Below are positions 3,166 through 64,000 of a stretch of DNA of 64,000 nucleotides, piece after piece. Position numbers and translations under genes: made by a program. The notes beneath the pieces are model-generated. The model had not been told where the DNA came from, did not search any database, and saw nothing but the letters and a program-made list of their open reading frames with translations. Numbering within the stretch: position 1 is the first letter of the stretch; each line of letters begins with the position of its first letter. This DNA comes from Acidilobaceae archaeon (GTDB lineage: Archaea > Thermoproteota > Thermoprotei_A > Sulfolobales > Acidilobaceae), in the NCBI GenBank assembly GCA_027014125.1, contig JALWEI010000026.1, forward strand, positions 1 through 64,000, written 5' to 3'.

Positions 3166-4281
3166 CTAGAGTGTTATGTGTATCCCCAGCACCTCTATAA
3201 CTATGAAGTATATTATTAGGAGGGCTGCTCCGAATGGCACGCCTAGCCTTGCCCACTCCTTCATGGTTATCTTGAGCCTCCCAGCCGCCACTATATTCGG
3301 GATATTCCCGGGGATCAGCATGCCACCCGATACTAGGAGGCTCATCAAGGCGCTCCTGATCTGCTCCTCGCTAAGATAAGGCCCAATCTCAGCCGCGGCC
3401 AGGGTAGCATTGTCGACAACCGCCGATATGGTATTAACCCAGTATAAGACAGCCGGGTCCAGCTTGGAGAAGTACCACACGACCATAGGAGTGAAGCTGT
3501 ACCCGAGCAGCTCTAGGGCTGCCACGAAGACGAACACCCTAACAGTCCTCTCCACGACATCCCTCAGGGTCTCCCCATACGTAGCGGATACCCCCTCCAC
3601 CTGGGAAGCGTAACGCCTCATGGACAGGCTGGCGACAGCCGCGACCCCGATCACCCCTGGTATGACATAGGCGCCTAGGAGGCGGAGAAGGTAGTCGAAT
3701 GGAGCATTCAGCTTGGAGACTGCTATGGTTGAGAGCGGCTCGCCTATAGGGGTGAGCGCCGCTCCCAGGCCCAGGGCGAAGGCGGCGTATATCGTGAACC
3801 TGATCTTGGCTCCCCTGGGCATCTTGAGAGCCGCCACAACCTCGGAGAGTATGACAGCCGTTACTATCACCGATATAACACTGGATATCATGCCTAGCAC
3901 CGTTATGAATATGAAGGTGAACAGCGTCAGCCCCACCCTCCTGATCATCCTGTCAAGCATCCTGTATATGACCGGGTGGTAGTAGAGGAAGATGAGGCCG
4001 AATATGAACACGGCCTGGGTGATGCCCACCGGGAGCCCGGAGACTGAGAGCGGCGTCTTGATCGCCTTGACTGCAAGCTCCCTAAGCCCCTCACCGTCGA
4101 GGATGCCGTAGTGGTATGTGACTGCAACCCCAACAAGGCCCATCGCGAGGAAGAAGGGCTCCAGGTTCTCCTCGACTCTCCTCGAGGCGAAGGGCAGGAC
4201 CAGGACTAGCACGAGTATGACTGCTAGGGCGATGGTTAGACCGGGTATAGGCTCTCCGAGCTCTGGCGGGGCAGCTGCCAT
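3166..4281 (-). CDS. DUF1646 family predicted cation transporter
   Basis: A 371-residue polytopic membrane protein with about ten hydrophobic helices. The family-like blocks are GAALTPIGEPLST in the first half and NTISAVVDNATLAAAEIGP plus GGMLIPGNIPNIVAAG in the second, the pseudo-symmetric pattern of ion-transporter-superfamily permeases. The substrate is not visible; family annotation suggests cations. An unusually AT-rich promoter region lies upstream. Confidence 0.8.
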   Translation of the reverse strand: MAAAPPELGEPIPGLTIALAVILVLVLVLPFASRRVEENLEPFFLAMGLVGVAVTYHYGILDGEGLRELAVKAIKTPLSVSGLPVGITQAVFIFGLIFLYYHPVIYRMLDRMIRRVGLTLFTFIFITVLGMISSVISVIVTAVILSEVVAALKMPRGAKIRFTIYAAFALGLGAALTPIGEPLSTIAVSKLNAPFDYLLRLLGAYVIPGVIGVAAVASLSMRRYASQVEGVSATYGETLRDVVERTVRVFVFVAALELLGYSFTPMVVWYFSKLDPAVLYWVNTISAVVDNATLAAAEIGPYLSEEQIRSALMSLLVSGGMLIPGNIPNIVAAGRLKITMKEWARLGVPFGAALLIIYFIVIEVLGIHITL

Positions 4282-54691: not shown

Positions 54692-54970
54692 TCACAACAC
54701 GCACAAGCCTCCTCCCTTGTGCTCTCCGGAACCTCTTCTATGCTGTGGAGTGTTACGTCCTCTGTGAGGATCTCGTTTATTGTTGTCTCTAGGGTTTCCC
54801 CTTGTGAGGGTAGTGTACCTGGTCAGCTTGTTCATGTTACTCTTGATCTCCTCTACGAGGGCATCTATCGTGTGCAGTTCCAGGCTTATTACTGCCCTTG
54901 CGAAGGCCCTTGAGACCCTTCCGCCTAGGAGCGCTGAGAATAGTATGTTGGTGTCAAATATCACGTCCAC
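54692..54970 (-). pseudogene. PIN-domain toxin, frameshifted and truncated (module TA-1)
   Basis: The N-terminal half is a good PIN start (MDVIFDTNILFSALLGGRVSRAFARAVISLE). After LTRYTTLTR the frame is wrong; dropping one base of a GGGG run restores LETTINEILTEDVTLHSIEEVPESTREEA, which aligns with TA-6 (EEDIPESIREEAWRLV). The restored frame runs to the left beyond the stop and into the end of the ABC permease without the last PIN aspartates, so the 3' third is lost. A dead toxin, cut by a rearrangement. Confidence 0.75.
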
Positions 54971-55269: not shown

Positions 55270-55701
55270 TTAAGGTCTCCTTACCGCTACTCTCCTCTCT
55301 TCTAGCTCCTCTACCTTGTAGTCCTCCTGATTGTAGGTTAGTATCACTGCATTACCATACCTCTGTGTTAGGTGTAGGGCTAGCGCTACGTAGGGAGAGT
55401 CCTTCGGGTCGTTCACCAGCCCCTCCGCCTCCTCCATGTATTGGGTGTACTCTTCTACACTTACCTCTGTTAAGATCTTAAGTATGGCGTTAAACCTTTC
55501 AATCAGGGCTTCTGCTTCTATGCTCTTCCTTTGGGCTAACCGTGTCAAGATCCTCCTGAACTCCTCGTGGATATAATCAGGAACGTAAAGCCTTGCCCCG
55601 ACTATGTAGAGCTGTAGTAGAACCGACGCCGTGTAACCGTAGGGATTGAGTACCGCTGCTAACAGGACGTTCAAGTCGACGACGATCGGTGCCTCCTCCA
55701 T
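55270..55701 (-). CDS. PIN-domain ribonuclease toxin (module TA-2)
   Basis: 143 residues, VapC-like. Acidic PIN residues lie in PIVVDLNVLLAAVLNP (with Asp-Leu-Asn where Asp-Thr-Asn is usual), HEEFRRILTRL and LVNDPKDSPYVALALHL, with a final NQEDY. Its sequence differs widely from the neighbouring toxins. Overlaps the antitoxin by 31 bases. Expected to cleave RNA when unpaired from its antitoxin (family knowledge). Confidence 0.82.
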   Translation of the reverse strand: MEEAPIVVDLNVLLAAVLNPYGYTASVLLQLYIVGARLYVPDYIHEEFRRILTRLAQRKSIEAEALIERFNAILKILTEVSVEEYTQYMEEAEGLVNDPKDSPYVALALHLTQRYGNAVILTYNQEDYKVEELEERRVAVRRP

Positions 55702-55923: not shown

Positions 55924-56324
55924 CTAGCACTCTACACCCTTCTCCCCCAGCCTCTCCCTGGCCCACTCCACCGCTTCCCTGGCTATCCTCAACTCCTCTC
56001 TCGCCTCCTCCTCAACCACCGGCGGGCCTGGGTACCTGGCTTCTACTGCGTAGTATGTGAGGTCCTTCACGTGTAGGCTCCTTATATACCCTACATCCAC
56101 CTTCTCGCTTAGCAGGTCTACCAGCTTCCATATGTCATGGACCTTGGAGGCTTCACCTTATATGCTGTTAGAAGCGCCTTTAGGGCCTTTTCTACTGCTT
56201 GTTGTGCGTGGAAGGCTGCCAGCCCAGGGTCTACCCCTATCTCTAGGGCGGCCTCCGCCAGTCTCAGGTCGTCGAGGGCCTTACGCATCCACATGCAGGT
56301 TACGTCAGACATGTATTCCTTCAC
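55924..56324 (-). pseudogene. HEPN-domain protein with a one-base frameshift
   Basis: The open part (MRKALDDLRLAEAALEIGVDPGLAAFHAQQAVEKALKALLTAYKVKPPRS) is a typical HEPN N-terminal half. One missing base near 56146 puts it out of frame; restoring it gives HDIWKLVDLLSEKVDVGYIRSLHVKDLTYYAVEARYPGPPVVEEEAREELRIAREAVEWARERLGEK and a stop at 55924. That completes a HEPN of 133 residues with the R-x(1-6)-H catalytic motif. Sequencing error or recent mutation. Partner of the overlapping MNT gene. Confidence 0.75.
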
Positions 56325-56652
56325 CCGTTATGGCGGCCTCGAAGGAGGCCTCTTCCTCCACGTTCCTGCTATAGTATTCCGTGCCCTCTATTAGTAGGTC
56401 TACGGGCCCGCCTAGGAGGGGCCTGAGCCTCCTGTATATCCTCCTCCATAGGAGCTTCCTAACCCTCCACTCCAGCCCTCCCACTATGACCACTAGTATG
56501 TCCCAGTCGCTGTCCTCCCTTGCCTCTCCCCGCGCCCTGCTCCCGAAGAGTATGACCTTCTCCACCCTTACCCCCAGCTTCCCGGCCTCCTCCATTATAA
56601 CCCTCTTAATCTCCCTGAGGAACTCCCCGTCAACCCCATCCCTCGTCAACAT
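56305..56652 (-). CDS. MNT-type nucleotidyltransferase (antitoxin partner of HEPN)
   Basis: 115 residues. VEKVILFGSRARGEAREDSDWDILVVI contains the GS-x-x-(R)G-x(9)-D-x-D motif of minimal nucleotidyltransferases. In MNT/HEPN pairs the MNT modifies and silences the HEPN RNase (established). It lacks the shared leader block and starts 18 bases after the TA-3 toxin stop, so it may be transcribed with TA-3. Overlaps HEPN by 20 bases. Confidence 0.85.
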   Translation of the reverse strand: MLTRDGVDGEFLREIKRVIMEEAGKLGVRVEKVILFGSRARGEAREDSDWDILVVIVGGLEWRVRKLLWRRIYRRLRPLLGGPVDLLIEGTEYYSRNVEEEASFEAAITGEGIHV

Positions 56653-56670
56653 CTTTCCAATATTATTATT

Positions 56671-57171
56671 CTAGCATCTAGTCTTATTATCTGGGCAATA
56701 TCTCTCCTTGAGGTACTCCTCTATCTGCCTCCAGCTCTTTCCCTCTAGTAGCATTTCTAGGGCTCTTGTATCCAGTGCCTTGTACCTCCTCGTCTCTAGG
56801 GAGTGTCTTATCATTTCCCTATCATTGGTCCATACTGGCGCATTGTACTGGAGCGCCAGCGCTATGAAAGGCCAATCATCAGAGTCAAACTCTCCAGCTA
56901 TCTCCTTAGCAGTCTTGATATAGGCGTCTTGGAGGCCCGTTGGTGTTATTAGCTCCCCCTTGAGGTCCTCCAGCAACCCCTTGATCCTCTCCCTCGGTAT
57001 GCCCTTCCTTGCTGTGATCTCCTCTATGTGCCTCTCAGCCTCAGCCCATGCTTCCCTGGGTGTTATGATTATTGCTGGCTGGTTGAATAGCGCCTCTCTG
57101 ACTCTCCCGGGCCTTAGGATGGACGCCAGTATCTTGTTGGTATCAATCACCACGAACCTTGGATAGCTCAT
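56671..57171 (-). CDS. PIN-domain ribonuclease toxin (module TA-3)
   Basis: 166 residues. FVVIDTNKILASILRPGRVREALF gives the first Asp; EAWAEAERHIEEI the Glu; GEFDSDDWPFIALALQYNAPVWTNDREMI the later Asp residues. It resembles TA-4 and TA-6 in layout (alleged WTGDR/WTNDR block) but is only moderately similar. Overlaps its antitoxin by 29 bases. Confidence 0.85.
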   Translation of the reverse strand: MSYPRFVVIDTNKILASILRPGRVREALFNQPAIIITPREAWAEAERHIEEITARKGIPRERIKGLLEDLKGELITPTGLQDAYIKTAKEIAGEFDSDDWPFIALALQYNAPVWTNDREMIRHSLETRRYKALDTRALEMLLEGKSWRQIEEYLKERYCPDNKTRC

Positions 57172-57400
57172 CCTCTATCCTCCTGGCTAGGGCCCTCTTT
57201 ATCTCCCTATCTAATTCTAGTATCTCTTCCTCGCTCGCTAGGGGCTCCGGTATAAGATCCTCTAGCTCCTTGAGGATGAGCAGCCTCCTCTCAAGGGCGG
57301 ACCGGGCAATCCTAGCCAGCTCCTCCTCCCCAAGCCCCTCAAGCCCCTCAGGCACCTCAACCTCCACCGTTATCCTCCTAGTTGCCACCGCTCCTCCCAT
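57143..57400 (-). CDS. Antitoxin of module TA-3
   Basis: 85 residues, the longest of the set. GGAVATRRITVEVEVPEGLEGLGEEELARIARSALERRLLILKELEDL is followed by an acidic helical tail that probably wraps the toxin. A likely true start is the GTG at 57388 after GGGAGGAGCG. Confidence 0.75.
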   Translation of the reverse strand: MGGAVATRRITVEVEVPEGLEGLGEEELARIARSALERRLLILKELEDLIPEPLASEEEILELDREIKRALARRIEDELSKVRGD

Positions 57401-57430
57401 ACCTAGAATATTGTTCCTGGGTGTTTATAT
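57381..57430 (-). repeat. Shared leader block of module TA-3
   Basis: ATATAAACACCC, ATTCTAGGTAT, GGGAGGAGCG, GTGGCAAC. The TAA of the preceding (TA-4) toxin lies inside its TATA box. Confidence 0.75.
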
Positions 57431-57919
57431 CCCGGCCTCGTATTTCTTCTTCATTTTCATCCTTACTTCTTCTAGTGGTGCTCCTTCTAGGAGCATCTCT
57501 GCTCCCTCCGTGTCGATGGCTGTGAAGTATCTGAACCCGGTCTCAGCGGAGAGCCTGAGCAGCCCCCTGTCCCCGGTCCACAGCGGAACCCCAAGATGCA
57601 TAGCCAGGGCGACGAATGGTGCATCGGCGAGATCCACATTCTTTACTATCTCCAGGGCCCTTGGCAGGTGTCTTGCGTACTCCTCTTTTCTGTGCAGCAT
57701 GGTGGTCTCCTCTAGGAACCGGTCTATTATTCTTTTCATCTCCTCTCTTGATAGGTTTAGGTATCTCTGGAGCTTGTGGATGTGCCTGTATAGTTCCTCC
57801 CTGAGCTCGGCTGGTGCATGCAGCTTTAGGTTCCCCCGTAGGAGGATGATCTCCCTTATCCGGCCCCTCTTTAGCAATGCGGAGAATACTATGTTTGTGT
57901 CGGCCACCAGATCTATCAT
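57425..57919 (-). CDS. PIN-domain ribonuclease toxin (module TA-4)
   Basis: 164 residues. DLVADTNIVFSALLKRGRI, ELREELYRHIHKL and NVDLADAPFVALAMHLGVPLWTGDRGLLRL carry the PIN acidic residues. The last 57 residues are almost identical to the TA-6 toxin; 76 bases (57531-57606) match TA-6 exactly while the first halves differ strongly. Its stop codon TAA at 57427-57425 falls in the TATA box of TA-3. Confidence 0.87.
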   Translation of the reverse strand: MIDLVADTNIVFSALLKRGRIREIILLRGNLKLHAPAELREELYRHIHKLQRYLNLSREEMKRIIDRFLEETTMLHRKEEYARHLPRALEIVKNVDLADAPFVALAMHLGVPLWTGDRGLLRLSAETGFRYFTAIDTEGAEMLLEGAPLEEVRMKMKKKYEAGI

Positions 57920-58143
57920 CTGTGGTCCTCCATTACCCTCCTGTATATGGACCTCTTTGCCTCCCCTGCTAGCTCCTCTACCTCCTCCTGATTGGGCTCT
58001 CTCCTCTGGGCCCTCTCAAGGGCTAGGTATAGCACTGCTCTCCTCGCGGCAGATACGATGGCCTCTCTAGCCTCCCACTCACTCACCCATTCAGGTACCT
58101 CAACCTCTATGGTTATTTTCTTGGTTGCCACCGCCCCTCCCAA
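57916..58143 (-). CDS. Antitoxin of module TA-4
   Basis: 75 residues: VATKKITIEVEVPEWVSEWEAREAIVSAARRAVLYLALERAQRREPNQEEVEELAGEAKRSIYRRVMEDHR. The track-type start is TTG, not ATG, at the position where other modules have ATG; the conserved GTG at 58131, 4 bases after GGGAGG, is the likelier start. Overlaps its toxin by 4 bases. Confidence 0.75.
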   Translation of the reverse strand: MGGAVATKKITIEVEVPEWVSEWEAREAIVSAARRAVLYLALERAQRREPNQEEVEELAGEAKRSIYRRVMEDHR

Positions 58144-58174
58144 TGAATAGAATAATGCTTCCGGGTGTTTATAT
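58124..58174 (-). repeat. Shared leader block of module TA-4
   Basis: A 51-base sequence identical, base for base, to 59472-59522 (module TA-6). It includes the TATA box, the ATTCTATTCAT motif, GGGAGGGGCG and the first antitoxin codons. The TAA of the TA-5 toxin lies in its TATA box. Confidence 0.8.
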
Positions 58175-58573
58175 CTGGGCTTTCTTGAACGGGTTCTCTA
58201 CCCTTATTATCTCCTTGTATGGCTTCTCGTCCTCGCTCAGGATCACATCTACCCCGTTATTCCTGTAGGTATAGGCCAGGAGCCTATCCCAGAAGTACCT
58301 CGCCGGTGATCCTGCTGCTTGGAGCACCTCTGTGTGGGTGTAACTGAGTACCTCTAGTACCCTAGATAGTAGGTTAGCCATGCTGATAGCCTCTTCCAGG
58401 ACCTCTGGGGCCTTCCTTGAGATAACGTATACCATTTCTGCTAGAACCTGCGCCGCTATCCTATAACTTCCAGGATCTTCGATAACATCCCTTAATATCT
58501 CCTCGGCTGTCCTCCTTTTCTCCTCCTCTCCTGCCAGGGCGTAGACTAGTATGTTAGTATCTAGTCCTTTCAC
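58169..58573 (-). CDS. PIN-domain ribonuclease toxin (module TA-5)
   Basis: 134 residues of a different PIN lineage: KGLDTNILVYALAGEEEKRRTAEEIL, QVLAEMVYVISRK and RYFWDRLLAYTYRNNGVDVILSEDEKPYK, resembling classical VapC. It shares no close similarity with the other toxins of the array beyond the fold. Overlaps the antitoxin by 20 bases. Confidence 0.87.
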   Translation of the reverse strand: MKGLDTNILVYALAGEEEKRRTAEEILRDVIEDPGSYRIAAQVLAEMVYVISRKAPEVLEEAISMANLLSRVLEVLSYTHTEVLQAAGSPARYFWDRLLAYTYRNNGVDVILSEDEKPYKEIIRVENPFKKAQI

Positions 58574-58766
58574 TGTATACCTCCTCCCTCGGTGGTATGT
58601 CTTTAACCAGTGCTCCCTTACTCCTGGCCCTGGCGAGGATCTCCTCCAGCTCCTCTCTCGGTTTCAGTACTCTATACCTTAACCCCTTCAAAACATCCTC
58701 AAGCCTCACGCCCTCAGGTAGCTCTATCTCGACGACCACCCTCCTCTCGGCCACTGCTTCCCCCAT
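58554..58766 (-). CDS. Antitoxin of module TA-5
   Basis: 70 residues. GEAVAERRVVVEIELPEGVRLEDVLKGLRYRVLKPREELEEILARARSKG. The most divergent N-terminus of the set (GEAVAERR for GGAVATKK), matching its different toxin. The tail resembles AbrB/VapB-linked regions that bind VapC. Confidence 0.75.
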   Translation of the reverse strand: MGEAVAERRVVVEIELPEGVRLEDVLKGLRYRVLKPREELEEILARARSKGALVKDIPPREEVYSERTRY

Positions 58767-58796
58767 GCATAGAATTATGGGGGAGGGTGTTTATAT
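58749..58796 (-). repeat. Shared leader block of module TA-5
   Basis: ATATAAACACCC, ATTCTATGCAT, GGGGGAAGCA, GTGGCC. Less conserved at the ribosome site. The TAA of the TA-6 toxin lies in its TATA box. Confidence 0.7.
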
Positions 58797-59288
58797 CCCA
58801 GCCTCGTATTTCTTCTTCATCCTCTCCCTTACCTCCCCTAGCGGGGCCCCTTCTAGGAGCATCTCCACCCCCTCCGTGTCGATGGCTGTGAAGTACCTGA
58901 ACCCGGTCTCAGCGGAGAGCCTGAGCAGCCCCCTGTCCCCGGTCCACAGCGGAACCCCAAGATGCATAGCCAAAGCAACAAAGGGCCAATCATCCGGGTC
59001 TACATTATGGACAAGTCTCCATGCCTCCTCCCTTATACTCTCCGGGATATCTTCTTCATTGACTACTTCTATGTATGGTTTTATGATGGTGTTGTAGATC
59101 TCCCTCATTAGCTGTGGTTCTGCCCCTACGTATTCCGCCGCTCTTGGTACCAGCTTCTCCACCTCTTCTATTATCCTTCTTGGTGCTACGAGTGTTACTG
59201 CGCCCCTCATTGTTAGGAAGAGTCTTCGTAGCCTTACTCCGCCTATTAGGATAGAGAATGCAATGTTTGTATCCACGACTAGCCTCAT
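58791..59288 (-). CDS. PIN-domain ribonuclease toxin (module TA-6)
   Basis: 165 residues from the ATG at 59288, 2 bases after the antitoxin stop (the open frame to 59372 is antitoxin coding in another frame). MRLVVDTNIAFSILIGGVRLRRLFL, RRIIEEVEKLVPRAAEYVG and NVDPDDWPFVALAMHLGVPLWTGDRGLLRL carry the PIN acidic residues. The C-terminal part is nearly identical to TA-4. Confidence 0.87.
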   Translation of the reverse strand: MRLVVDTNIAFSILIGGVRLRRLFLTMRGAVTLVAPRRIIEEVEKLVPRAAEYVGAEPQLMREIYNTIIKPYIEVVNEEDIPESIREEAWRLVHNVDPDDWPFVALAMHLGVPLWTGDRGLLRLSAETGFRYFTAIDTEGVEMLLEGAPLGEVRERMKKKYEAGI

Positions 59289-59290
59289 CC

Positions 59291-59491
59291 TTATCTTCTC
59301 CCTGCCCTCCTCTTGGCCTCCCTTGCTAGCTCCTCTATGTCCCTCTCCCTGGCTTCCGGGAGCTCCAGCCACCTGTATATGAGGTATAGCTCCCAGGCTC
59401 TCTCCCTTAGCACCCTAACAAAATCCTCCCCAACTCCCTCAGGCACTTCTACCTCTACGGTTATCCTTCTAGTTGCCACCGCCCCTCCCAA
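59291..59491 (-). CDS. Antitoxin of module TA-6
   Basis: 66 residues: VATRRITVEVEVPEGVGEDFVRVLRERAWELYLIYRWLELPEARERDIEELAREAKRRAGRR. As in TA-4, the position of the ATG is TTG, and the GTG at 59479 after GGGAGGGG is the likelier start. It is the first gene of the array in transcription order. Confidence 0.75.
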   Translation of the reverse strand: MGGAVATRRITVEVEVPEGVGEDFVRVLRERAWELYLIYRWLELPEARERDIEELAREAKRRAGRR

Positions 59492-59625: not shown

Positions 59626-61527
59626 TTATCTTCTAGTCCATGAGACTGTCCTTATGTTTTCTGCCAGGCTCCTTATGTACTCCCTCGGCTCCAGTCTTCC
59701 CTCCTCTCTGTGGGCCTGTAGGGTTCTCCATGCTACTCCTTTCGTTACCTCCGCTGTCTGGATAATTATTCTAGTCAACTCTAGTATTATCTTCCTCTCC
59801 TCGGCATTGTGCTTGCCCAGTTCCGCAATCCTTCCTAGCGTTGTGAGTAGTAGGGGGACGTCGTATTCTCTGGGGTTGTAGCCCTGGGTTAGGAGGTGCT
59901 TCGCCATGCCTAGCTCCTCCCTTGTCTCGGCTACGTGTATGGGGAGGGTTTGGAGGAGGTGTTGGATTGCGAGGGAGGCCCATCTTGCCTCCTGCCTCTC
60001 CTCGGGGGTTCCCCCTCCCCTGAGGGATTGTTCTACCTCCCTTACCACGTCTGCTACCATCTGGTAGTAGGGCTTGCCTGTGTGCTTCTTCATCGCCTCC
60101 TTGGCTGCTTCCAGGGCTTTTGAGAGGGTTTTGATTGCCGATTCCCTGCCGATCTGTATGGCCTTCTCCGTGTACTCCTTGTGGAGGCTCTGGTGTATGT
60201 GTTCTAGGGTTTCGGGGCTGATCCTCTGGAGGTACTCGCTCGTGGGCTTCCTCTCCTCTACGTGGAGGTTCCTTGCCAGGACTGCCAGCTCTGACTTGGC
60301 GTCTTCGTGGTAGGGGTCTCTCCTGCCCTCCTCTATTTCCCTTGCGAGCCTTATGAGGTTTAGGAGGGTTTTGGCTAGCCTCCTCTTGTCCCTTCCGGGT
60401 AGGCCGAGCCTCGTTTTTATGAGGGTTATCTCCGCGTTTCTCCTCCCCTGGGCTGCCTCCTCCAGTATCCTCTCCGGGTCCTGGTAGGGCTTGAGGTTTG
60501 CCGCTTTCCTTATGAGGTCGAGTATTATCTTGGAGGGCTTTGAGGGTTCTGCCCCCTTCGATACCTGGTCTTCGAGGGTGTTTATGATGTGGTAGGCTAG
60601 GTTGTAGTGCTGGGTTCCCTGTGGGCTGTGGGGCGCGGTTGTTTCTTCGAGTATCTTCTCTATCTCCTCCGGGGTTAGGGGTGCGCCCTGCTCTGTTGCG
60701 TGTAGGAGGGCTGCGAGCCTGTAGGCTGCGCCTGGGAGCCGTTCTTCGAGCACCCTGGCTGCTATGACGGGTGCGAGGGGTTTTGTGCCGAGTATCTCCT
60801 CCGGGTCTTTGTCCCAGAAGGGCTCTATTCCCAGCTCCTCTATTGCCCTCCTTGCTTCTTCCTCTACCCGTGGGGTGTGCTTGTGGGCCTCGTGGGACGG
60901 GTACTTCTTGTCTGCCCCCCACTTTGACACTCCTCCTGCCCTTGCTACCAGCTCGTTGTACTTTGGCACTACGGGGTCGTCCTGGTCGTCCGGCAGTATG
61001 TCTAGGAGGTTGTAGATGGCCACTCCGGGGTCCCTCAGCTCTTCCTTCATTGATTTTCCTCTTCCCCCTTTGTAGGGTTTTTTGGGTATGATGGAGTCCA
61101 TTTCCCTGGCGTACTCGAAGGTGGATTTTATTATGTACTGGTAGATCTTCTCCCTGTCGGTTACCCCCTTTTCGAGGGCCTCGTTGAGGAGTATGGCTGT
61201 GAGCATCCACGATGGGCGCATCATGTCCTCTTCTCTGAACATCTCGTGGTACCTCTTTATCTTTTGTATGAACTTTTTGAGGTGGGGGTCCTCTACCTGC
61301 TCTTCCTTCTGGAGGAGCTTCTGGTAGGCCTTGTCGTACTCGTCCTGGAGGTGCTGGTATGCCTCTTCTATGAGGGTGTCTGCCAGGTACTGGTCTATTT
61401 CTTCCTTGGTGAGTTTTTCGGGCATGAGCTGTTCCTTCGTCTTCTTGCTTCTGAGGATTTTTCTTAGGAGGCGTTTTAGGGCGTATCCTCCGGCTGCTCC
61501 GAGGAGTGTGAGGGCTTCTTCTGACAT
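59626..61527 (-). CDS. Large helical protein of unknown function
   Basis: 633 residues, charged and almost entirely helical (EEIDQYLADTLIEEAYQHLQDEYDKAYQKLLQKEEQVEDPHLKKFIQKIKRYHEMF...), with a weakly hydrophobic N-terminus (LTLLGAAGGYALKRLLRKILRSKK) that could touch the membrane. I recognise no domain or catalytic motif. The ATG is one base after the stop of the preceding gene (TAACATG) with GGGGGAT upstream, so the two are a transcriptional unit. The pair adjoins the toxin-antitoxin array and is likely part of the same accessory region. Confidence 0.75.
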   Translation of the reverse strand: MSEEALTLLGAAGGYALKRLLRKILRSKKTKEQLMPEKLTKEEIDQYLADTLIEEAYQHLQDEYDKAYQKLLQKEEQVEDPHLKKFIQKIKRYHEMFREEDMMRPSWMLTAILLNEALEKGVTDREKIYQYIIKSTFEYAREMDSIIPKKPYKGGRGKSMKEELRDPGVAIYNLLDILPDDQDDPVVPKYNELVARAGGVSKWGADKKYPSHEAHKHTPRVEEEARRAIEELGIEPFWDKDPEEILGTKPLAPVIAARVLEERLPGAAYRLAALLHATEQGAPLTPEEIEKILEETTAPHSPQGTQHYNLAYHIINTLEDQVSKGAEPSKPSKIILDLIRKAANLKPYQDPERILEEAAQGRRNAEITLIKTRLGLPGRDKRRLAKTLLNLIRLAREIEEGRRDPYHEDAKSELAVLARNLHVEERKPTSEYLQRISPETLEHIHQSLHKEYTEKAIQIGRESAIKTLSKALEAAKEAMKKHTGKPYYQMVADVVREVEQSLRGGGTPEERQEARWASLAIQHLLQTLPIHVAETREELGMAKHLLTQGYNPREYDVPLLLTTLGRIAELGKHNAEERKIILELTRIIIQTAEVTKGVAWRTLQAHREEGRLEPREYIRSLAENIRTVSWTRR

Positions 61528-61528
61528 G

Positions 61529-63559
61529 TTATCCCCCTATTACCTTGTTGCCCAGGGTGAGTGTTGGGGGTTGATCCTGGAGGGTTATGGTTAGGGCTGG
61601 GAGGTTTAGGAGTTCTCCTAGGGGTGTGAGCTTTGCTGATACCGCTGTTCCTGCGATGTAGCCCAATACGGTGCATCCTAGGGAGCGTTTTAGGCTTTTT
61701 CTCGGTGTCGTCTGGCTGGGCCTGGTCAGCCCTTCCTCGGCCCCCTCCGCTATGCTCCTCATGTTGTTTGCTATCCCCTGGAGGACCTCCTCAAGCTCGC
61801 TTGCCTTCCCTATCTCCTCTGCCACCGCCGTGAAGGGGTCGTCGGATGTCATCACCTTCCTTAGTACCTCCTTCTTCGGCCTCCCGCTCTCTTCGAATAG
61901 CTTGTCCTTTATCTGCTGGAGGGCCTGGGTTGGTCTCCTCTTGAGGGCTTCCTCCAGTTGTTTGGCTTCATCGCCGCTTATGAGGCCGAGCTGCTTGGCT
62001 GTCTGGAGGGCCTTGGCAGGGTTTTCCTTAGGATTCTTTATGGCTTCCAGGAGGTCCTCCAAACCTTCTTTCCTCTCCTTCTCAACCCATCCCTTAACAG
62101 TATTATATATATTATCATAACCTGGGTTGCCTCTCTTTATCTCACTCTGCTCTAGAATCTGGTGGATCTGTGCATCGTTCGGCAGGCTCTTGCGCTTAAG
62201 TATAAAGTCTATTAAATTCTCACGCACTTTTTTTGCCTTTGTAAAATCTGTGATACCTCCTTCTAACATCTTCTTTTTTAGATAGTTCCCTAACTTGTTA
62301 TCTAATTCCTCGTTTTTGAGTAGATTTGCGACTTTTTCCGCCACTTCTTTATAGACATTTTTCTTAAGCTTCTCCGCCACGGTATTCTCCATTTCCTGCC
62401 AGGCCTTCTTTATGAACTCGCTGTAGAGCTGGGCCCTGGCATTCTTCCACTCCTGGTTTGCCATTTTCTTGAGGAACTCCTGGCTGCACCCCTCGGCGCA
62501 GACGTACTTGAGCACCCTCGCATCCCTGGGCTTCAGGTTCGCGAGTATCCTCGCCTCCAGTTTGGGGTCGAGGCTCGTCCCGGTGAGGTCCCTGAAGGCG
62601 GCGTCCACGGTCTTCTCAAGGAACCTCTTGGTCACGAGCCTTGGCTTGTGTATCCTGCCCTCCTCCTCCCACTGGAGGAGGTACTCAGCAGCCCTCCTGG
62701 CGGGCATGTCCAGGAAGATCTGCTCGCCGAGGGTGAGGCCCCCCACAGCGAGGGCCCCGCCGACGGCGGGCATCCAGACGCTGGTTAGGGAGACGTCCCC
62801 GCCCTCCTTAAGCTCCTCCAAGACCTTATCCTTCGCGCCGAAGTACATGGAGGCGCCGAGGGGCAGGACACATCCGAGGGCACCCTCGACCAGGCCCGCC
62901 ACCGCCCCGATTCCCAGCCACTTCGCCTCACACGCAGCTGTTGCCAGCGTACAGGGCGCGGCGAAGGAAGCGGCGGACCGCAGGCTGAACAGCTGGCCGA
63001 CCACCTTCTCGTCTATGTACCTGCCGTAGCAGAGCTGGTCGTCCCTGCTTATCGGGTTCCCGTCCTTGTCCTGGAGGCAGAGGGCGTAGCCCTGTTCCTT
63101 GGGCTCTCCCCTGTCGTACTGCTCCGCGACGTACAGGAGGGCCCTGGCTATCTGGTTGTTTAGGTCCTGGGTGTCGAGCCTGGTCTCCCTGGTGCTTAGC
63201 ATAACGGGTATGTCTCCCCCGGCGCAGGTGGCGAGCAGCCCAGCCGGATCCCCACCCAGGGGCTTGATCAGGCTGCTGCCCTCCTGCCCGCCGTCTGGGT
63301 AGAACAGCTCCCCGGCGAGGGCCATTGTGAACCTCCTGGCCGCCGCCTCCGGGGTCCCCTCCTTCAATGCCGCGGTCAGGGCGTTCCTTATCATGGCTGG
63401 GGTTATGTACCTGGGCTCTATCTCCACCGCTAGGGTACGGAGCACCACCCTCCCCCCAGATACTGCCTTCAAGGTGACGTTAAGGGTGCCCACCAGACCC
63501 CCACTACTTAATATATCCTCGCCTAGGATTAAAACAAGCATACCATTATCAAGGCCCAC
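61529..63559 (-). CDS. Large protein of unknown function with central hydrophobic segments
   Basis: 676 residues. The N-terminal 190 are soluble with beta structure (VGTLNVTLKAVSGGRVVLRTLAVEIEPRYITPAMIRNALTAAL). About 205-290 is hydrophobic, glycine- and cysteine-rich (FAAPCTLATAACEAKWLGIGAVAGLVEGALGCVLPLGASMYF). About 320-610 is helical and lysine-rich, and another hydrophobic stretch (TVLGYIAGTAVSAKLTPL) ends it. Part of the helical region (near 62150-62400) is more AT-rich. No family recognised. GTG at 63559 or ATG at 63541 could be the start. First gene of a pair with the 633-residue protein. Confidence 0.7.
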   Translation of the reverse strand: MGLDNGMLVLILGEDILSSGGLVGTLNVTLKAVSGGRVVLRTLAVEIEPRYITPAMIRNALTAALKEGTPEAAARRFTMALAGELFYPDGGQEGSSLIKPLGGDPAGLLATCAGGDIPVMLSTRETRLDTQDLNNQIARALLYVAEQYDRGEPKEQGYALCLQDKDGNPISRDDQLCYGRYIDEKVVGQLFSLRSAASFAAPCTLATAACEAKWLGIGAVAGLVEGALGCVLPLGASMYFGAKDKVLEELKEGGDVSLTSVWMPAVGGALAVGGLTLGEQIFLDMPARRAAEYLLQWEEEGRIHKPRLVTKRFLEKTVDAAFRDLTGTSLDPKLEARILANLKPRDARVLKYVCAEGCSQEFLKKMANQEWKNARAQLYSEFIKKAWQEMENTVAEKLKKNVYKEVAEKVANLLKNEELDNKLGNYLKKKMLEGGITDFTKAKKVRENLIDFILKRKSLPNDAQIHQILEQSEIKRGNPGYDNIYNTVKGWVEKERKEGLEDLLEAIKNPKENPAKALQTAKQLGLISGDEAKQLEEALKRRPTQALQQIKDKLFEESGRPKKEVLRKVMTSDDPFTAVAEEIGKASELEEVLQGIANNMRSIAEGAEEGLTRPSQTTPRKSLKRSLGCTVLGYIAGTAVSAKLTPLGELLNLPALTITLQDQPPTLTLGNKVIGG

Positions 63560-64000
63560 TCTACGGCTATTACTGTCCCCTGTAAGTTCCGGGGCTATGG
63601 ATGTCTGTGTCTGTGGTAGCCCTTTTCCTGGGGCTTGGATTTTGTGGTGGTTTGGGTTGGTTTTTGATGTTGTTTTGTGTTACACTATTTATATTTTGTG
63701 GAGGACGCGGGGTAAATGCTTATATTGTTGTGTTTTCCTCCTATAATTAATAGTGTTGTTTCTTGTTACAATATGTGTTTTAGTATATTTATAGATTATA
63801 TTTAAGTGTTAGCCGAGAGGATATGATGTTATAAATTGATTAGCCTTCACTAGTATATACAAACATTGGGCTCGTGGGCGTTTCTTAGCCACCTGAGCCC
63901 TCCCTAGCACAGGAATGGAGGGTGAGGTCAATGTATATTGGTTATCCCCGCAGGAGGAGCTATGCTATAAAATCAATTTTTTCAAGGCTAGTATCCCCGC
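63560..64000. other. Non-coding AT-rich region at the window end
   Basis: About 440 bases without a credible open frame. It holds T-rich promoter-like sequence (63640-63830), a possible structured RNA at 63863-63934, and two copies of TATCCCCGC (63943-63951 and 63992-64000). Nothing else recognised; it continues beyond the window. Confidence 0.5.
63863..63934 (+). ncRNA. Possible structured RNA
   Basis: ACATTG (63863-63868) pairs with CAATGT (63929-63934) as an outer stem. Inside, GGGCTC-GTGG pairs with CCAC-CT-GAGCCC (63868-63900), and CTCC with GGAG (63900-63903, 63917-63920). The three nested or adjacent stems suggest a folded RNA, with AT-rich promoter-like sequence upstream. No known RNA family recognised; strand is assumed. 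Confidence 0.3.

Follow-up and report, generated by a model that had tools for sequence, protein, structure and literature searches.

A fast-evolving gene pair beside a HerA-type ATPase operon and a PIN_2-rich toxin-antitoxin array in Acidilobaceae and related archaea

Two adjacent genes without recognized relatives

We analyzed a 64,000-nucleotide stretch of DNA from an Acidilobaceae archaeon (contig JALWEI010000026.1, positions 1 to 64,000; hereafter the window), which is part of contig C26 in a 1.82 Mb genome, and followed up two large adjacent genes, here called A and B, that lie toward its end beside an array of toxin-antitoxin modules. Based on open reading frames and homologues, protein A (61529-63559, minus strand) comprises 676 amino acids (aa) from a GTG start and protein B (59626-61527, minus strand) 633 aa from an ATG start, with a single base separating the two genes (TAA-C-ATG), in agreement with the coordinates and junction given in a first-pass annotation of the window. 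Because both reading frames are conserved through 25-45% protein identity, we regard A and B as true genes rather than chance open reading frames. An AT-rich intergenic region (63560-63921) separates A from a divergent gene, up1, and carries a TATA-like sequence directed toward A. The open frame of A has no start codon upstream of 63559, and the protein in the window may be short by the N-terminal ~70-100 aa that are found in its relatives in genomes G002 and G016.

Protein A consists of a beta-rich N-terminal part, a Gly/Ala-rich hydrophobic middle with conserved cysteines and a helical C-terminal half, whose tail of terminal beta strands ends in Gly-Gly. This Gly-Gly end is present in all four A proteins with a complete C-terminus, several invariant cysteines are retained in A and its relatives, and the beta-rich N-terminus of the relatives likewise contains cysteines. 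Hydropathy analysis places two Gly/Ala-rich hydrophobic segments at about residues 214-240 and 256-283 of A, bearing out the earlier description of one protein with a membrane-like middle, and finds no hydrophobic segment in B. Protein B belongs to a mosaic family and is cysteine-free, as are its three long relatives (p = 6e-7 given the cysteine frequency of the window).

To place these proteins among known families, we searched several libraries. Neither A nor B matched a family in Pfam (sub-threshold matches only), PHROGs or the PDB (profile search), in the PADLOC models, which were also run against up1 and its neighbor up2, in IMG/VR, or in a translated search of 50,697 phage records that additionally took the ATPase up3 (described below) as a query. 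Models built with AlphaFold2 (AF2) from alignments of window proteins and proteins of related loci, with few homologues, were poor: A (predicted local distance difference test score, pLDDT, 47) shows beta structure at its two ends with helices in the middle, B (pLDDT 54) comes out as all helical, and a fold search with the two models returned nothing at E < 0.001, so we give the models no weight. The first-pass annotation's statement that the pair shares no recognizable domain therefore holds, with no clear profile match to a known family for either protein; its description of B as a helical bundle agrees with the all-helical prediction, but only in this low-confidence model. We conclude that the A and B families are new, while the kind of island in which they lie is already known.

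A divergent operon encodes a HerA-type ATPase

The main partner of A sits just past the end of the window, in a three-gene operon that is divergent from A (up1-up2-up3, contig C26 63922-66625, plus strand), which we delimited from sequence and profile matches. Its first gene, up1, begins with the last 79 bases of the window (63922-64000, plus strand), continues beyond it and encodes a 206 aa zinc-ribbon-like protein; up2 (plus strand) follows with 120 aa and a double zinc ribbon (PF12773), and up3 (plus strand) with a 584 aa HerA/DUF87 ATPase carrying an N-terminal zinc ribbon. The ATPase core of up3 matches PF01935 above the cut-off (E = 3.8e-8), as do 10 of 10 orthologues, and contains an invariant GxxGxGKT block and Walker motifs. 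All 10 of the 10 orthologues scanned also match TrwB_AAD_bind, a few match winged-helix families, and up3 itself matches HerA structures in the PDB.

Within the C-terminal 100 residues of up3 lies an invariant D...ExETG.N....K block that by eye resembles a restriction-fold nuclease motif. Pfam recognized no nuclease there, so nuclease activity is put forward as a suggestion; a relaxase-like assignment of the same region was likewise unsupported by Pfam and was dropped.

The gene block recurs across hyperthermophilic archaea

We next compared the locus with other genomes, searching 214 genomes of the order for homologues; extension to the class added only 15 genomes and no further protein A. 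Homologues of A were found in about 8 and homologues of B in about 11 of the 214 genomes, not counting a marginal match to A in G144 (E = 6e-4) that we did not accept. The hosts are a few hyperthermophilic Thermoproteota, mostly Acidilobaceae, with a distribution that is patchy between genera and even within one genus; the named relatives are metagenome-assembled genomes (MAGs) of Acidilobaceae, Pyrodictiaceae and Thermofilaceae, presumably from hydrothermal vents. Homologues of A and B diverge rapidly, and a wider contig search with up3 recovered 11 archaeal relatives where the same search with B recovered none.

Different genera carry different genes around the block, and what is shared is A, B, up1-3 and the toxin modules. 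A directly adjoins the up operon in five genomes (G000, G002, G068, G011 and G054), and in two more (G016 and G073) three genes intervene between A and the operon. Where the contig extends far enough, A is succeeded by B and the array. The order A, B, toxin array occurs in G000, G011 and G016; G072 also has B after A, but its toxin module sits on the side of B that faces A. Other arrangements were also observed, such as the C-terminal half of B directly abutting up3 in G003 and a PIN/MNT-HEPN array downstream of up3 in G009, whose contig, like those of G020, G032 and G064, stops before the position of A. The pair and its PIN arrays thus recur in other genomes, which refutes the possibility that the pair is conserved nowhere. 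The adjacency of pair and array described in the first-pass annotation stands, with the correction that, following transcription, the array comes after B.

Co-occurrence of up3 and A was significant among 48 genomes of the family (Fisher's exact p = 2.4e-4, not corrected for phylogeny). We additionally found that MAG contigs tend to break off on the side of the operon that faces A (Kolmogorov-Smirnov p = 0.008), which fits strain-level variability there but may have other causes. PIN-type genes also lie near B in G015, G010 and G023, in loci without an adjacent A or up3, indicating that the array is associated with B and the up operon with A. PIN_2 matches are concentrated beside A-B, with 5 of the 7 in the whole genome falling there in G000, 5 of 5 in G016 and 4 of 6 in G011 (binomial p = 2e-8, 2e-9 and 1e-6, respectively, for a 30 kb stretch, treating matches as independent although arrays grow by duplication).

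Exchange between species and recombination within the block

To assess block mobility, we compared G016 and G073, which are congeneric species. Their block core (6300 to about 12100 of L101 in G016) shares 96-100% DNA identity, except for one 600-base stretch at 83-88%, whereas the flanks share 82-94%, and inside A the identity falls to 93% and then 86%. From this contrast between core and flanks, we consider it most likely that horizontal transfer has carried the block from species to species, with a breakpoint falling within A.

The B family is mosaic, judging from alignments in which similarity switches along their length. In G015, for instance, the N-terminal third of B is mostly 35-60% identical to the window B but 15-26% identical to that of G011, while beyond this third the identities are 10-27% and 42-80%, respectively. 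Sequence comparison likewise indicates recombination between A and modules of the array. In G016, two remnants of A that are 35 residues long occur between array genes, each just after a HEPN gene (L018:1708-1812 and 4004-4108), scoring 47 and 45 bits compared with at most 29 bits among 300 shuffled queries; and in G072 (L056:6735-7296) a VapB gene and the first PIN codons run into the C-terminal part of A, with the B gene that follows this VapBC-A joint containing one in-frame stop.

B copies are broken in G010, G023 and G087, with G023 belonging to the same genus as G015, in which an intact homologue (L017:8832-10841) lies between PIN genes with neither A nor the up operon nearby. In G016 the B frame (L101:3206-3830) is open for 683 codons, the first 200 of which include no ATG, GTG or TTG, so this gene may be disrupted or may start in an unusual way.

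The three genes that intervene between A and up1 in G016 (L101:6548-8766) and in the matching stretch of L100 from G073 encode E1-, E2- and JAB-type proteins, and the cassette belongs to the block exchanged between these two species. The E1 is ThiF/E1-like, with a first 80 residues that look like a beta-grasp domain, the E2-like protein has an HPN..G.LC active-site motif, and the JAB protease has an HTHP...S..D motif. A 2010 survey of archaeal ubiquitin-like systems reported no archaeal E2 (PMC2948915). A second locus of ubiquitin-like protein and E1 was observed at a contig end in G005 (L134:4183-5272), where a frameshift-split E1 is 60% identical to that of G016; this short contig contains no A, B or up gene. 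We rejected the cassette as an obligate part of the system, with the E2 found only in G016 and G073 and a related E1 lying apart in G005.

A possible HerA-motor island and its alternatives

Taking the gene block, its mobility, its mosaicism and its association with the array as observed, we tentatively favor, at somewhat less than even odds, a reading in which A-B forms the rapidly evolving half of a mobile island that is built on a HerA motor and serves conflict or DNA transfer, with up1-up2-up3 as its stable half and PIN_2/HEPN modules as accretions. As its family suggests, the up3 ring motor would pump or unwind DNA, loaded or regulated by the zinc-ribbon proteins up1 and up2; A would anchor the complex at the membrane by way of its Gly/Ala-rich hydrophobic segments, and B would act as a cytoplasmic helical adaptor or recognition subunit. 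The divergence and mosaicism of A and B suggest that they diversify under conflict. The complex would then either destroy incoming DNA or move the island's own DNA between cells, two outcomes that the data do not separate, and the PIN_2 VapBC and MNT-HEPN modules would have accreted beside A-B, trading segments with A, to stabilize the island or provide an abortive back-up. Archaeal 'dark matter islands' (PMC4158269) similarly combine fast-evolving genes of unknown function, HerA-like ATPases, membrane proteins and defense genes, but the A-B-up1-3 block was not found among those described in the passages of that work consulted. The first-pass annotation's idea of a mobile-element part that brought the array is supported by the differing flanks, the exchanged core, the recombination between A and array and the PIN_2 concentration, while the envelope, defense and toxin-guarding functions that it proposed are hypothetical.

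Several observations weigh against this reading. B occurs without A or up genes nearby in G015, G010 and G023, so that A, B and up3 do not form a strict unit, and a Thermofilaceae contig with up genes but no A beside them is a true exception. The several B pseudogenes suggest dispensability. As no integrase, relaxase, pilin or attachment site was recognized in the block, its description as mobile rests on genome comparison, and both the membrane insertion of A and complex formation are predictions.

Antiviral defense, in which A and B sense infection either at the membrane or within the cytoplasm, the up3 motor and its nuclease-like C-terminus degrade invading DNA and the array provides an abortive back-up, is a possible but somewhat unlikely alternative. 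Among defense profiles, mad8 is the best match to up3 (E = 9e-12), followed by several HerA models, and the solved chains that up3 matches are HerA-type ATPases; toxin-antitoxin modules adjoin, E1, E2 and JAB genes share the block in two species, and the rapid divergence of A and B is as expected of sensors. The HerA matches are weak, however, and common to the whole HerA/FtsK/coupling-protein superfamily, and Pfam's failure to recognize a nuclease in up3 counts against the DNA-degrading step. No cognate effector of the HerA-SIR2, HerA-DUF4297 or MADS type was found beside up3, and A, B, up1 and up2 lacked effector matches in PADLOC and Pfam. Compared with HerA/FtsK-type ATPases (HerA-SIR2, HerA-DUF4297, mad8) and type IV secretion coupling proteins, up3 shares the DUF87/HerA core and Walker motifs but differs in its N-terminal zinc ribbon, winged-helix-like linker and C-terminal D..ExETG..K block, and its partners A and B, unlike those of HerA defense systems, match no effector family in the libraries used.

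We regard as rather doubtful a conjugation-like or mobilizable core, with up3 serving as coupling ATPase, A as a protein of the envelope or mating junction, B in DNA processing or as a scaffold, and the array for addiction. The uniform TrwB_AAD_bind matches of the up3 orthologues, the horizontal exchange of the block, the hydrophobic segments of A and the presence of toxin-antitoxin arrays, which are typical of mobile elements, are all consistent with it, and these archaea are known to have domesticated conjugation machinery (PMC9905601). The Ced/Ted DNA exchange systems of Thermoproteota (PMC9905601) resemble the block in their HerA/VirB4-like motor, a possible membrane protein and the same host group. 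Against this, no VirB2/CedA1-, VirB6/CedA- or integrase-like gene was recognized in the block, nor any CedA, CedA1/TedC pilin or CedA2-like gene, in searches that included no dedicated Ced/Ted profiles, and A, with no Pfam match and at most two or three weak hydrophobic segments, does not resemble a channel with six to seven transmembrane segments.

Inter-archaeal antagonism, with A as a surface or secreted polymorphic protein, B as its helper and the toxin modules as a cassette store, would agree with the mosaicism of B, the recombination between array modules and A, and the beta-rich, cysteine-containing N-terminus of A relatives. We nevertheless judge it improbable: the toxins of the array each retain an antitoxin and a start codon, fusion to A or B is seen only at the broken G072 joint, and no known trafficking domain was found.

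The conserved Gly-Gly end of A and the cassette beside it in two species also raise the very unlikely scenario that A is a giant ubiquitin-like modifier or carrier with a beta-grasp split around a helical insert and assembled from an N-terminal beta-beta-alpha unit and the C-terminal beta strands with their Gly-Gly, activated by the adjacent E1-E2 in those species or by a chromosomal E1-like enzyme elsewhere and recycled by JAB, within a HerA-motor conflict system. A keeps its Gly-Gly in genomes without the cassette, however; the restriction of the E2 to two genomes and the separate location of the related E1 in G005 also speak against this scenario, and the termini of A, alone or joined, had no ubiquitin-like Pfam match, with the AF2 model too poor to assign a fold. 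An equally slim chance attaches to a decayed integrated virus with A and B as structural genes: the proteins are large and fast-evolving, some B copies are pseudogenes and the low-confidence B model weakly resembles tail tape-measure models (none significantly), but the viral collections (IMG/VR, phage records and PHROGs) yielded no match to either protein, no capsid, portal, terminase or integrase was recognized nearby, and A has kept its place next to the up operon even where identity has fallen to 25-30%, in contrast to genes of a decaying provirus.

What the comparison brings together is two large families without known relatives that are linked to a HerA-type motor, within a gene block passed among hyperthermophilic archaea. 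Should this block prove to be a defense or DNA-transfer machine, it would be a new HerA-centered system in a group with few described defenses. It would also reveal a place where some PIN/HEPN arrays build up in these genomes, so that the long-standing puzzle of toxin-antitoxin hoarding by hyperthermophiles could be tested at a single locus.

Composition of the toxin-antitoxin array

The array consists of PIN, PIN_2, HEPN and NTP_transf_2 genes with small partner genes, and in these matches it resembles ordinary VapBC and MNT-HEPN modules; it differs from them in being PIN_2-rich and in its fixed position next to A-B, and in one genome remnants of A lie between the modules. On the minus strand, starting from B, the first module pairs a VapB-like antitoxin (59291-59491), assigned by similarity to other VapB copies, with a VapC-like PIN_2 toxin (58791-59372; PF10130, E = 3.9e-24). 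It is followed by a VapB-like antitoxin (58554-58766), which precedes a PIN gene and starts like other VapB copies, and the PIN toxin itself (58169-58573; PF01850, E = 7.9e-10), and then by a further VapB-like antitoxin (57916-58143; sequence and similarity to other VapB copies) with a PIN_2 toxin (57425-57919; PF10130, E = 1e-22). The next VapB-like antitoxin (57143-57400), recognized by sequence similarity and accompanied by a PIN_2 toxin (56671-57171; PF10130, E = 3.1e-27), shares 98% identity over 44 aa with the module beside the B gene of G003, despite only 63% identity between the up3 proteins.

Further from B, also on the minus strand, an MNT nucleotidyltransferase antitoxin (56305-56652; PF01909, E = 4.2e-10) adjoins a HEPN toxin (55924-56324) that is apparently split into two frames (56118-56324 and 55924-56100), the first of which is similar to an intact HEPN elsewhere; the split may reflect decay or a sequencing error. 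A PIN_2 toxin (55270-55701, minus strand) marks the distal end of the array, with a PIN_2 remnant beyond it (54803-54958).

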